This document shows positions 11,937 through 24,000 of a stretch of DNA of 35,156 bases, piece by piece. The translations under genes were made by a program, and so were the position numbers. This DNA comes from Promethearchaeota archaeon (GTDB lineage Archaea; Asgardarchaeota; Lokiarchaeia; Sigyniarchaeales; SOKP01): positions 1 through 35,156 of the forward strand of contig SOKP01000119.1 of the NCBI GenBank assembly GCA_004375715.1. Reading direction: 5' to 3'. Under the pieces are notes generated by a model that saw only the letters and a program-made list of their open reading frames with translations, was not told the origin of the DNA and searched no databases. Each line of letters opens with the position of its first letter. The stretch's first letter is position 1.

Positions 11937-13916
11937 CTAATAGTATTTCTCTATCAAAAAATCAATTTCTTTCTCTTCCAAACCAAATAATTCAAAAAGG
12001 AGTTTATCAATAATTTCTTGAACTAATTGTTGATTATTCTGTTCTGTAGATTCGAATATTTTATTTAATAATATCCTATTCCTGTCGTTAGAAAAAAGTT
12101 CTAATTCAAGAATTTTTTCCTTGATTTCTTTTAATTTCTGAGGTTTCTTGATATTGGTGAACTTAATCATCCATATAGCTAAGAGTTTTATTAAGGATAT
12201 TTTAGAAGCTTCTTCGTCAGATTGAAATATTTGTACATTTGGAACATATAATTGGTCTTCTAATTTCGTCTTACTTCTTTTGATTGAAATGTTATTAGCT
12301 TTAAATAAGAAATTAACTAATTTGGAGTTTAAATAAGCAATAAAAAATAAATAATCGACTTTCGTCTCGTCATCTTTCGACCATAAGAAGTAAGTATCGG
12401 AAGTTGCGTAATACATCTCTTCTGAATAGCCAAATATGTTCTCTTTTGAGATGTATTTGAAGAAAATCTTTTGATTTTTGTCATATAAAGGCTCAAGGTT
12501 TGTTATAATCCGCTTGGTGTCAATCCCATTCCTAATAATAAAACTGCCCCTTCGAGGAAAATATAAATCTTTTACGTTTTCTTTTGCGTTTGTTAATATC
12601 TTTTCCAGTTCCTCTTTGTATTGATGTAGATAAGATGTTAGTGTGGGGTATTTTTTTTTTAAAAGCTCATTCCTTTTGTTCTTATCTCGATTTTTAAATT
12701 CTTCTTTATTGAAGTATACGATATATCCATGAAAATCTTCCATTTTATAACCATAAGACCTAATGGATCTACTTTTATAAATTTTTTTTAGTCTTTTCTT
12801 TTCTTCCTCGTTTAATTTAACAAATTCACCGTTGATTTTGACGAATACTTCGTTATCTCTAAGTTTTAGATTTTCATTAAGATTTAAAATAAAAATCTCG
12901 TCTTTAATTAATATCAGTCCATTTCTAATAATAAAATAATCTTTTAAAAAACTAATTTTACCTTTAATTATACAAAAGGACTTAATTTTATCAACAATTT
13001 TTTTTACTTCAATTGGATACAAAAGATTCCAGCTGCCTATACTATTTAGCTCTCTGTTAGTTAAGGCTGATTGATATCGCATAACAAAATTGTGATTTAA
13101 GGAGTGTTTCAAGGAACGGTTCAAAGTATCAAAAATAACATTATTAGTGTTGTCATTAAATTGATTTTTGGGTTTAGAACTTGAAATTTGTAATACATCT
13201 ATTTTCCTATTTGTTTTTTTTAGCTTATCGTTTTCTGTCTTCTTTTGAAGCGAAAAAATACAGTTATGCTGTCCTTGGGCATCTCTAAATACTCTTATCC
13301 TCGATAAATCAATATATTGAATCAAAAAGCACTCGTCTAATATGTGTGGTTTCAATAATTTAATACCAGTTTTCTTGGATTTGGTAATCCAATAATTTGT
13401 TGTGATATAAGAAAGAATTCCACCAGGTTTCAACTTAGTTATTCCAAGATGGATAAAGAAATAAAATAAGTCCATATTGCCAACGAAGTATTCGCGACAA
13501 AAGGGATAATTATTTGCCAAGTTCTGAAAAACTTTTGCGTTATAATTTTGACCTAAGTAAGGCGGGTTTCCAATTATAATATCGAATTTTTCTTTAATAT
13601 CTGAGCCTAAAAAATTTTCAAAACGAAATTGAATGTTAGGATAATTTTTAACCAATTGCGATTTTAAACGATTATCAATTTCATACGCAGTTATGTTTGT
13701 GAGATTATTTTCCAAGAGATATTTTAAAAAAACGCCCTCCCCGGTTGTAGGATCTAGAACCTTTAAATCGTTAAATTTAATACTAAATTTATCTTCATAG
13801 TCTAAAGTTTTAAGTAGCTCGAGAACATTTGAAACCATAAACTTAGCGATATAGCTAGGTGTAAAAATTTGACCAATAACGGTGTTTTGTTGTTTTATAT
13901 CCTTTTTTATATCCAT
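11937..13916 (-). CDS. Orphan N6-adenine DNA methyltransferase (Eco57I/TaqI type)
   Basis: This 659-residue protein begins at once with a methyltransferase: GQIFTP (residues 15-20, motif X), DPTTGEG (55-61, motif I, SAM binding) and NPPY (117-120, motif IV, catalytic) leading to YITTNYW. The rest is a large target-recognition region with lysine-rich stretches. There is no N-terminal PD-(D/E)XK nuclease as in type IIG enzymes, and no restriction gene beside it. It is probably a solitary DNA-marking enzyme or the remains of a restriction system. Its start codon lies inside one copy of a 68-bp direct repeat, whose second copy lies 771 bp away near the 3' end of the flavoprotein gene. That suggests a rearranged or acquired locus. 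Confidence 0.9.
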   Translation of the reverse strand: MDIKKDIKQQNTVIGQIFTPSYIAKFMVSNVLELLKTLDYEDKFSIKFNDLKVLDPTTGEGVFLKYLLENNLTNITAYEIDNRLKSQLVKNYPNIQFRFENFLGSDIKEKFDIIIGNPPYLGQNYNAKVFQNLANNYPFCREYFVGNMDLFYFFIHLGITKLKPGGILSYITTNYWITKSKKTGIKLLKPHILDECFLIQYIDLSRIRVFRDAQGQHNCIFSLQKKTENDKLKKTNRKIDVLQISSSKPKNQFNDNTNNVIFDTLNRSLKHSLNHNFVMRYQSALTNRELNSIGSWNLLYPIEVKKIVDKIKSFCIIKGKISFLKDYFIIRNGLILIKDEIFILNLNENLKLRDNEVFVKINGEFVKLNEEEKKRLKKIYKSRSIRSYGYKMEDFHGYIVYFNKEEFKNRDKNKRNELLKKKYPTLTSYLHQYKEELEKILTNAKENVKDLYFPRRGSFIIRNGIDTKRIITNLEPLYDKNQKIFFKYISKENIFGYSEEMYYATSDTYFLWSKDDETKVDYLFFIAYLNSKLVNFLFKANNISIKRSKTKLEDQLYVPNVQIFQSDEEASKISLIKLLAIWMIKFTNIKKPQKLKEIKEKILELELFSNDRNRILLNKIFESTEQNNQQLVQEIIDKLLFELFGLEEKEIDFLIEKYY

Positions 13917-13978
13917 CTAATCTTAATATTAGTTTATAACCTCTAAAAAGGTGATGTTTTTCTAAAAAGAAAGGAAAA
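13911..13978. repeat. 68-bp perfect direct repeat, copy 1
   Basis: This 68-bp stretch is identical, base for base, to 14682-14749. It covers the methyltransferase start codon (ATGGAT on the minus strand) and about 60 bp of upstream region, including an AT-rich promoter-like part. The flanking sequences differ immediately outside the repeat. Confidence 0.9.
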
Positions 13979-14045
13979 TAGTTAAAAACTATAATAATGC
14001 GTATTATAATGGTGGAATAAAACTGGAAAAAAAAATATTAAAAAG

Positions 14046-14483
14046 TTGGAATTACCCATTTCATCTAAAACAGGAGAACCATTAAAGCCATTTATAAAAC
14101 CATGGGGTACATTACTACTAGGTATCACATTTATTGCATTGGGATTTTTAAATTGGTGGCGTTCATATTCTTGGTATCCCTTCCCAATTTTTACTAACTT
14201 TACTAACTTTTTACTTTTTATTTTTTTATTAGTTGAAGGGTGTGTATTGATTTATCGTGCAAAACTAGGGAACAAACACGTGCTGACTCACCAAATAATC
14301 TTATTAATAAACAGTTTCTTTGTATTATTTATGGGATTTGTTTTTTCAATAATCTTTTGGTCAATACCTGGTCTATTGGGCATGGTAGGCGGTATTATCA
14401 TCATTATAATATGTACTTTGGGCTCCACTATTCATTGTATATATTGGCTCGTGAAGTTGGAAAAATACAAGGTTAAAAATTAA
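14046..14483 (+). CDS. Small four-helix membrane protein
   Basis: This 145-residue protein has four predicted membrane segments: about residues 26-43, 50-72, 82-105 and 107-136. A short polar N-terminus with conserved-looking prolines comes first (K-P-F-I-K-P-W-G). I do not recognise the family. The start is TTG at 14046; no ATG or GTG precedes it in frame after the TAA stop just upstream, and no clear ribosome-binding site is visible. The gene lies between the two copies of the 68-bp repeat, so it may have been inserted or trapped with them. A membrane role in transport or stress is possible but unsupported. Confidence 0.6.
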   Translation: MELPISSKTGEPLKPFIKPWGTLLLGITFIALGFLNWWRSYSWYPFPIFTNFTNFLLFIFLLVEGCVLIYRAKLGNKHVLTHQIILLINSFFVLFMGFVFSIIFWSIPGLLGMVGGIIIIIICTLGSTIHCIYWLVKLEKYKVKN

Positions 14484-14520
14484 GTCATTAGAAGAGATCG
14501 TAACTACATTATTTATAAAT

Positions 14521-14691
14521 GAAATATTATTAAGTCAGACCAATGCTCAACTTATATTTCTAGCCACTTTTTTTGGAGCGAATAGTTATAATTTTGCTTA
14601 GAATACAGATAAATACATTATCGGGTGGAGTGGAGTTTCAGATGCTATTATGGTAAGTTATGTAATAGCCTTACTTGTTAAATCCATCTAA
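14521..14691 (+). pseudogene. Possible remnant of a membrane-protein gene
   Basis: A plus-strand frame encodes a hydrophobic protein-like stretch (QLIFLATFFGANSYNFA), then a TAG stop, and continues in the same frame with a second stretch (YIIGWSGVSDAIMVSYVIALLVKS) that ends in a TAA inside the second 68-bp repeat copy. There is no start codon and the internal stop breaks it. I see no known family, so this is a low-confidence call of a decaying gene. Confidence 0.3.
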
Positions 14692-14749
14692 TCTTAATAT
14701 TAGTTTATAACCTCTAAAAAGGTGATGTTTTTCTAAAAAGAAAGGAAAA
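14682..14749. repeat. 68-bp perfect direct repeat, copy 2
   Basis: Identical to 13911-13978 over 68 bp. It lies 20 bp beyond the 3' end of the dihydrolipoamide-dehydrogenase-like gene. On the minus strand it carries an ATG-GAT that opens only a nine-codon frame before a TAA, so it is a copied methyltransferase 5' region without the gene. Confidence 0.9.
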
Positions 14750-14769: not shown

Positions 14770-16302
14770 TTACTGGTAATGGTCGTGATTGTGACCGTGA
14801 TGCTCCATTTTTATGTTAACTGGTCTTAGAGAGCCGATAGCCCAGCCAGTGACTTCGTTTAATGAAGGATGAATAACCATTGATCTGTAAATCGGCATAA
14901 AAGATCCTCCTTCTGGACACGCGCGAGATAATTTAGGGATATCCTCCTCCCCAGAAGATTCTGGTAAGACACATGTAAATCCAGAATTCATTAAATAGAC
15001 GAAAGGTTGCACCAAGATCGCTGCGTGTGGTCCAACAACATGAGCGCCTAAAATTCTATAGGATTTATCAACAACTAATTTGACGAATCCGTCGTCGTCA
15101 TCGTTATTACTGAAGCCCATAGCGTAGCCCTTTGCTACTGTGGAATATTGTTTTATAGCAACGTAAATTTCATAACCTTTGTCAATAGCTTCTTTTTCCG
15201 TCATCCCTACGTGACCAATTTGAGGATAAGTAAAAATTGCCCAGGGGACTGCCGAATAATCTACAGATTTTCTATGTTCCTTTGGAGCAAAAATATTATT
15301 ATTACATATCTCTGCTTCATAATTCGCTTTATGTCTAAATTGATAACGCCCATTAGCATCGCCTATACACCAAATATTCTTTTTAGTCGTTTCCAAGTAT
15401 TGATTGGTTGTTACCCATCCGCGTTTATCAGTCTGAACGCCAGTTTTCTCGACATTCAGGATGTCTGCGTTTGAGCGTCTCCCCGTAGCAACTAAAATTT
15501 CTTCGGCTTGTAATTCAATTTCTTTTCCACTATCAACATCTTGAACTGTAACTGTTTTGATTTTCTTTTGTGTAGCAACTTTTATCGCCTTATGATTTAC
15601 TAACACAGTCATATGTTTCTTAAAATTACGTTCCAGGAATTCGCTTATTTCTGGTTCCTCAGTCATGACTAACCGAGGTAACATCTCTACAATAGTTACT
15701 TTCGTGCCAAAAGCGGAAAAAATATGAGCAAATTCAGCGGCAATAACCCCACCTCCAATAATAATTAGACTTTCCCACGGCTTCTTAGGGAATTTATCAC
15801 CAAAGAAATTCTCGCTTGTTATGTATTCTATCTCGTCTAATCCTTGTATAGGAGGAATAAAAGAACGCGCACCAGAAGCTAAAACAAATTTTTCTCCTTT
15901 AAAGTGACCGATGATTTTCCCAGAACCAACAGATTTAACCTGCATTTCATAAGCTCCAATAAATTCACCCACTCCTTTATACAGTTTCAAGTTTGGTACA
16001 TGGGATAGCCCCTCTTCCATTTCTTTGCTTTCATCTATTTGACTCCACATTCTTTTAGCAATTAAGTCCCAATCAATGTCTTCAACTCTAAATTTTATCC
16101 CTACCCTAGTGGCATGCTCTGCTTCTCTTATTAAGTCTGCGGGGTGAACCAATACTTTTGATGGAATACAACCGCGAGTTAAACATGTCGCTCCAAGTTT
16201 CGCGTTTTCAACTAGAGCGCACTTTAATCCCATTTGAAGTCCATAATTAAGGACACTTAGCCCCGCTCCAGATCCAACAACTACTAAATCATATTTCTCC
16301 AT
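14770..16302 (-). CDS. Dihydrolipoamide dehydrogenase-like flavoprotein disulfide reductase with His-rich tail
   Basis: This 510-residue protein is a class I pyridine nucleotide-disulfide oxidoreductase. It has an FAD motif GSGAG (10-14), the redox cysteine pair C40 and C45 in GATCLTRGCIPSK, an NAD(P)-binding GGGVIAAEF (183-191), ATGRR (272-276), IGDANG (313-318), and the C-terminal base pair H478 and E483 in HPSLNE. A segment before the catalytic His (about 447-475, GEEDIPKLSRACPEGG) is longer than I would expect and has an extra cysteine, and the end HHGHNHDH is a metal-binding type tail. Lipoamide dehydrogenase is the closest reading. Mercuric-reductase or coenzyme-A-disulfide-like activity cannot be excluded, since no 2-oxoacid dehydrogenase or glycine-cleavage genes are nearby. 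Confidence 0.88.
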   Translation of the reverse strand: MEKYDLVVVGSGAGLSVLNYGLQMGLKCALVENAKLGATCLTRGCIPSKVLVHPADLIREAEHATRVGIKFRVEDIDWDLIAKRMWSQIDESKEMEEGLSHVPNLKLYKGVGEFIGAYEMQVKSVGSGKIIGHFKGEKFVLASGARSFIPPIQGLDEIEYITSENFFGDKFPKKPWESLIIIGGGVIAAEFAHIFSAFGTKVTIVEMLPRLVMTEEPEISEFLERNFKKHMTVLVNHKAIKVATQKKIKTVTVQDVDSGKEIELQAEEILVATGRRSNADILNVEKTGVQTDKRGWVTTNQYLETTKKNIWCIGDANGRYQFRHKANYEAEICNNNIFAPKEHRKSVDYSAVPWAIFTYPQIGHVGMTEKEAIDKGYEIYVAIKQYSTVAKGYAMGFSNNDDDDGFVKLVVDKSYRILGAHVVGPHAAILVQPFVYLMNSGFTCVLPESSGEEDIPKLSRACPEGGSFMPIYRSMVIHPSLNEVTGWAIGSLRPVNIKMEHHGHNHDHYQ

Positions 16303-19416: not shown

Positions 19417-19788
19417 TTTAATTCAATAAGTTATGAGTTATTTTTAGATTTTTACCTACATTTTTGGTAGTAGAATTCTTTTTTTCTTACATTTTTTCAA
19501 AAAAGGTGTACTTAGGCAATGTGACGATAGAAATTAAGATTAAATTGCGGGATTTAGAATTTGATATGAAGAAGAATATCATGAAAAAAATATAGGCTCC
19601 GTTCTGCTGTAATGCTGGAGAACCCAATCTGTTTATATAAATTCCGTCGTATTTATTATTTATTTTTATTATGTTAACAAACGATTATCACTTTCATTTA
19701 TAAGGGGATGGAGCTAATTTATATTAGAGTTTTGTTATTAGTTTTATTATTAGTTTTATGAAAATTAAAAACGAAGAGTGATTATGTT
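19417..19788. other. 372-bp intergenic region
   Basis: I see no gene here. It begins with a T-rich stretch (T7 at 19479-19485) after a four-bp stem, CTAC/GTAG (19456-19470), which may end the upstream Fe-S protein transcript. TATA-like sequences (TTTATATAAATTC around 19632-19644 and TTTATAAGG near 19696) could be promoters of the downstream membrane protein. A GGCTCCGTTCTGC to GCTGGAG stretch can form a weak stem but no recognisable RNA. Confidence 0.6.
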
Positions 19789-23304: not shown

Positions 23305-24000
23305 CTATTTCTCCTCCTTTATTGGTTCTTCTTCGTTCGTATAAGATTTATTAATATCAATAAACCGTGGACTTGACCAAAGTCTATAGTTTCTTGGTGG
23401 ACGGTATTTAGTAAAAAGATCCATTCTATTAAATTTTCTTAGGCGTTCGTATATCTTTATCCAAGCACATTCGTGTATATATCCACCAACTTCGCATTTA
23501 CCGTCAACAGTCCCACCACATGGTCCGTTACTCAAGTTTTTAGCACATCCGGCCATAGGACACACTCCACCAGTAGCACCAAGTAAACACTCTCCGCATG
23601 TTTCACAATATTCAGCAAAACTATTTTCTGCATTATTTTCTGCCCCTCCAAACATACTATTTTGAGCAGGATAGGTAAGAATATTTTCAAATATTCGATT
23701 CATCATGACAACGCCTAATCCGCAGGATAACGATACTATCGCATCGTATTCCTCAATAAAAGGTCGAACGGTAGTTGCTGCAATTCTATCGTCACATTGC
23801 CTAAGTACTGTTATAGCTTTCCATTTTAACTCTTTACCCTCGACTTTTGCTTTTAATTCGAGCATTTGACCAAGATTTTTCGCTTCAGCTATAGATCTTG
23901 GAGGTTGACAACATCCATCACACCCAGTAACTAAAATTTTTGAATATTGTTTTATCATATCGTATATTTCTTCTATATTTTTAAGTTCTGTAATTATCAT
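23305..24000 (-). CDS. metV: MetV, Fe-S/zinc subunit of methylenetetrahydrofolate reductase
   Basis: This 231-residue protein is a MetV, the C-terminal-type partner of MetF. It has a dense cysteine set: C27, C30, C31; C69; C93; C132, C135 and C138 in CETCGEC; C147, C152, C161, C169 and C178 in a GGVCPMAGCAKNLSNGPCGG stretch. The latter is the MTHFR_C domain signature. Acetogen studies report that MetV binds Fe-S clusters and zinc and is required for MetF activity. Its start ATG follows a GAGGG ribosome-binding site. The upstream gene encodes an HdrA/GltD/MvhD-like fusion, so the trio probably forms one reductase complex. The last residues are charged and may be a linker. Confidence 0.93.
   Translation of the reverse strand: MIITELKNIEEIYDMIKQYSKILVTGCDGCCQPPRSIAEAKNLGQMLELKAKVEGKELKWKAITVLRQCDDRIAATTVRPFIEEYDAIVSLSCGLGVVMMNRIFENILTYPAQNSMFGGAENNAENSFAEYCETCGECLLGATGGVCPMAGCAKNLSNGPCGGTVDGKCEVGGYIHECAWIKIYERLRKFNRMDLFTKYRPPRNYRLWSSPRFIDINKSYTNEEEPIKEEK

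Follow-up and report, generated by a model that had tools for sequence, protein, structure and literature searches.

A probable strain-variable gene cassette bounded by a 68-bp direct repeat of a methyltransferase start region in Lokiarchaeia

The repeat pair and its flanking genes

The window analysed here is the whole contig (35,156 nt) of a draft Lokiarchaeia MAG, whose assembly amounts to 3.07 Mb in 320 contigs. The relatives used for comparison are Lokiarchaeota MAGs. Two genes on the complementary strand frame the locus: an Eco57I-type DNA methyltransferase (MTase, positions 11937–13916) and a dihydrolipoyl-dehydrogenase-like gene (DLD, positions 14770–16302). A 68-bp sequence, termed R, is present twice in this region. 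R1 (positions 13911–13978) and R2 (positions 14682–14749), both also read on the complementary strand, form an exact direct repeat (68/68 bp) with a start-to-start distance of 771 bp. About 3e-29 exact 68-mer pairs are expected by chance in 35 kb, and no further R copies are found in the rest of the 3.07-Mb assembly.

R1 includes the MTase start codon (ATG, complement of 13914–13916) and the DNA upstream of it. R2 adjoins the 3′ end of DLD and displays the same upstream DNA without a gene; its ATG is followed by nine open codons only (ATGGATTTAACAAGTAAGGCTATTACATAA). In orientation, R1 is still in front of the MTase, and the orphan start region R2 points antisense into the DNA between the repeats. 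A preliminary description of this DNA reported a perfect 68-bp direct repeat, 771 bp apart, which covers the methyltransferase start region and whose second copy lacks its gene. All of this is borne out, at the same coordinates.

The insert X-deltaP

The 703 bp between the repeats (positions 13979–14681, termed X-deltaP) contain two frames, and these correspond to the TTG-start frame and the broken frame previously described. The first, X (positions 14046–14483, forward strand), encodes a membrane protein of 145 aa if read from TTG. X has no Pfam match above cut-off and lacks a HAAS domain. It aligns to the C-terminal half, the membrane half, of a ~345-aa protein that is found in most of the family and whose N-terminus matches the HAAS domain (PF22564). 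X resembles the membrane portion of HAAS-domain proteins such as those of the HAAS-PadR systems (PMC11237479). It differs from these systems in lacking HAAS itself, and the neighbouring genes examined included no recognised PadR regulator.

In six of the seven other X copies, an SD-like GGAGG or similar sequence is followed by an in-frame CTG or TTG and then by an A-rich run of 10 bases; the seventh copy is truncated at its 5′ end. The window displays GG and a tract of 9 A at positions 14025–14035 (forward strand), compared with 10 in relatives, and this shifts the likely CTG start into another frame. With one A missing upstream of X, the TTG at position 14046 is probably not the native or ancestral start. 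The 9-A tract may be an assembly error; if it is genuine, X could be dead or off in this genome.

The second frame, deltaP (positions 14484–14681, forward strand), is a decayed 3′ fragment of a gene termed P and has an internal TAG. Among the genomes searched P is intact only in G022. A viral origin of X or P was considered and set aside, as no relatives of either were found in viral contigs. A literature search gave no description of this locus.

Gene P of G022 (L037 3283–4338, complementary strand) displays an HG...C motif and a helical C-terminus, and distant relatives are present in other Asgard genomes. It has no Pfam match. The HG residues are invariant in six aligned relatives; the Cys is not present in all. 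A low-confidence model of P (mean pLDDT 55.8) gives only weak flavodoxin-like and caspase-type matches. A caspase fold for P was considered and tentatively set aside, as the model is of low confidence and has no PDB match at E ≤ 0.001.

Empty, single and double alleles in relatives

Sister MAGs 33X4 (G009) and ABR02 (G010) have a single R at this locus, which joins the DNA on the left of R1 to the DNA on the right of R2. This is the exact product expected of recombination between two R copies. In this empty state R takes up nearly all of the DNA between the DLD stop codon and the MTase ATG. The insert is also absent from the outgroups G015, G018 and G020, which have a single R-like site between MTase and DLD. 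The gene order MetF-HACDH-DLD-MTase-rSAM is common to many relatives, and because this order is conserved the insert is the derived state. In G009 and G010 themselves, the unit may have been lost or may never have been present.

HM4_B22 (G003) displays a tandem R-X-R-X array. The repeat there has longer bounds, with breakpoints that differ from those of the window, and the second R-X unit (L034 2958–3675) contains, besides R, at least ~49 bp from the start of the MTase gene. No match to DLD was found in G003. A histidine-kinase gene comes after its array; in G005 this gene adjoins a DLD start remnant at a contig end. R-X is present in G014 and G005 as well; both contigs end inside X and the right junctions are not covered.

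Several junctions recur. The R|X junction is identical by alignment in G003, G005 and G014, the deltaP|R breakpoint of the window is found in G022 (where the R copy has a 15-bp deletion), and the R|DLD junction is found in G009 and G010. The comparison of strains that was previously proposed thus reveals alleles with no unit (G009/G010), one unit (window) and two units (G003). The related proposal that the intervening gene can be deleted is largely supported, as G009 and G010 carry one R with the same neighbours; we infer the exchange itself from the allele structures. The further suggestion, that recombination here could switch promoter use, is speculative, with R1 still in place before the MTase and R2 an orphan copy.

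The DLD gene of the window is G002-like upstream of ~15480 (206/231 informative sites) and G009-like downstream (211/224; p = 4.5e-82). With its breakpoint near 15480, DLD is a recombinant of two lineages, and DNA reaching into the locus has therefore been exchanged by homologous recombination.

Conservation of R

The DNA upstream of the orthologous MTase was read in 26 named relatives. Many of them have a recognisable proximal part of R (ATCA..TTTAGA..AATATTAAGATTAG ahead of the ATG). R shows no differences in G009, G010 and both G003 copies, and one difference in G014 and in G005. It is 98.5%–100% conserved among genomes with a dS of 0.1–0.28 in the first 150 MTase codons. By these comparisons R is either constrained or homogenised. 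Because R is near-identical across relatives whose coding DNA has diverged, the 68-bp identity does not date the duplication. The preliminary description took this identity to indicate a recent duplication or insertion; the empty sites support a duplication or insertion, but with R so conserved the identity does not show that it was recent.

The position of R and its conservation suggest that it is the MTase promoter. A search for an RNA element in and around R gave no Rfam match up to E = 1, the predicted single-strand fold of R is not notable (z about −0.4), and a scan for bacterial-type promoters and terminators gave nothing above chance.

Proposed exchange at R

The locus is probably a strain-variable gene cassette that comes and goes through homologous recombination at R. 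Comparison of the genomes shows that the ancestral order was DLD - R - MTase, in which one R, the putative promoter, lay upstream of the MTase. It also shows that X and the dead fragment deltaP became inserted beside R and that R was duplicated along with them, such that one R stayed with the MTase and the other with DLD. The 68-bp direct repeats may then serve as homology arms. Exchange between the repeats, or between homologous loci of different strains, would remove the unit (the G009/G010 state), add a unit (the window state), or leave tandem units, as in HM4_B22, which has two units and different repeat breakpoints. Homologous exchange at R would account for alleles with zero, one and two units, and no dedicated enzyme would be needed. 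Homology this short can suffice for archaeal recombination: Sulfolobus acidocaldarius recombines on ~30–50 bp (PMC3139894).

Gain and loss via repeats is already well known as a general mechanism. The locus resembles cases of direct-repeat-mediated tandem duplication and deletion in that repeats flank a segment, relatives have 0-, 1- and 2-unit alleles, and no dedicated enzyme is seen. What sets it apart is a repeat that is itself the conserved start region of a gene, together with a rapidly evolving gene within the unit. The cassette is real, well-bounded and strain-variable; its mechanism is ordinary, and the fast-evolving gene inside it is moderately interesting. Through the empty site, the one- and two-unit alleles and the recombination breakpoint, recombination-driven gene turnover can be followed to the exact base in Lokiarchaea, for which few genetic tools exist.

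Evolution of X

A different explanation of the locus takes X as a gene fragment under drift and the duplication of R as an accidental tandem event with no function. Pairwise NG86 values for X are compatible with drift, with a mean dN of 0.157 and a mean dS of 0.152 (rough estimates, from ~140 mosaic codons); omega in the controls is 0.24–0.68 for the parent family and 0.2–0.3 for the MTase. Variable sites in X are distributed 47/53/49 over the three codon positions. DeltaP is decayed, and the likely X start is frameshifted in this genome. However, the X frame is open in all eight copies, all indels in the coding sequence have lengths divisible by three, and in 2000 neutral simulations the eight frames never all stayed open. 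There are also strongly conserved blocks within X. Neutral decay is thus considered unlikely. X probably encodes a functional membrane protein that is diversifying fast and that arose from the membrane half of a HAAS-type sensor; the homology is demonstrated by alignment and the function is presumed. It points to a fast-evolving membrane-protein family that is not described in any family library searched here.

The X copies are mosaic, and G005 and G014 have an identical run of 219 bp in common. Between G000 and G003a, X has a dS of 0.044 and the conserved N-terminal half of the MTase a dS of 0.245. A dS for X so far below that of the MTase suggests exchange of X between lineages. One may go further and propose that X belongs to a Lokiarchaeal cassette family in which array copies and dispersed copies recombine, using the MTase start region as their homology arm, and so diversify a small membrane protein. 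This proposal is speculative and probably incorrect; if true, the X cassette family would be a recombination-based variation system in Asgard archaea.

Other origins of the insert

X-deltaP could also be a small non-autonomous transposable element, with R an unusually long target-site duplication. The insert does have a directly duplicated target and exact empty sites, and X-deltaP is found at unrelated loci (G009:C4, G014:C57 and G022:C134, the last being the locus of P in G022). On the other hand, terminal inverted repeats pairing the unit ends were not found, and no transposase gene was recognised in the window. Apart from a 15-bp A-rich match, the G009:C4 copy displays no flanking direct repeat; in G003 the repeat has its own, longer bounds, and the right ends of deltaP vary from locus to locus. 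A transposable element is therefore improbable.

Alternatively, R could be a site for site-specific recombination, similar to an integron or a phase-variation switch, at which a dedicated recombinase moves X or switches promoters. Exact bounds, multi-unit arrays and a conservation of R beyond expectation would agree with such a site, but the conservation is explained by the place of R as MTase start and promoter, the breakpoints of the arrays vary between genomes, and R has no notable single-strand fold. No recombinase gene was recognised in the window, nor was an integrase gene among its ORFs read by eye, the window being one contig of a draft genome. This origin is very unlikely.

Least credible is duplication of R by a collapsed or chimeric short-read assembly, a concern raised in the preliminary description and in keeping with the 320-contig MAG and with the related contigs that break inside X (G005, G014), since the R1|X, deltaP|R and R|DLD junctions recur independently in other assemblies.

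The methyltransferase

The MTase of the window matches Eco57I (PF07669; 5.5e-20, 72.6 bits versus a cut-off of 25.3) and also TaqI_C. PADLOC classifies it as MTase_II, and only the MTase matches among known defence genes. In its PF07669 match it is similar to other Eco57I-type MTases. Unlike these, it has no recognised partner nuclease beside it, and G000-type and G003-type alleles differ from each other in the specificity-type region. The N-terminal half has ~90%–95% DNA identity to G003 and G005, and the later specificity-type region 43%–78% in places. The recognition region thus appears to have been swapped.

Elsewhere in the window, a 25-bp perfect inverted repeat is present at positions 19508–19532 and 23784–23808, with its arms 4.25 kb apart.
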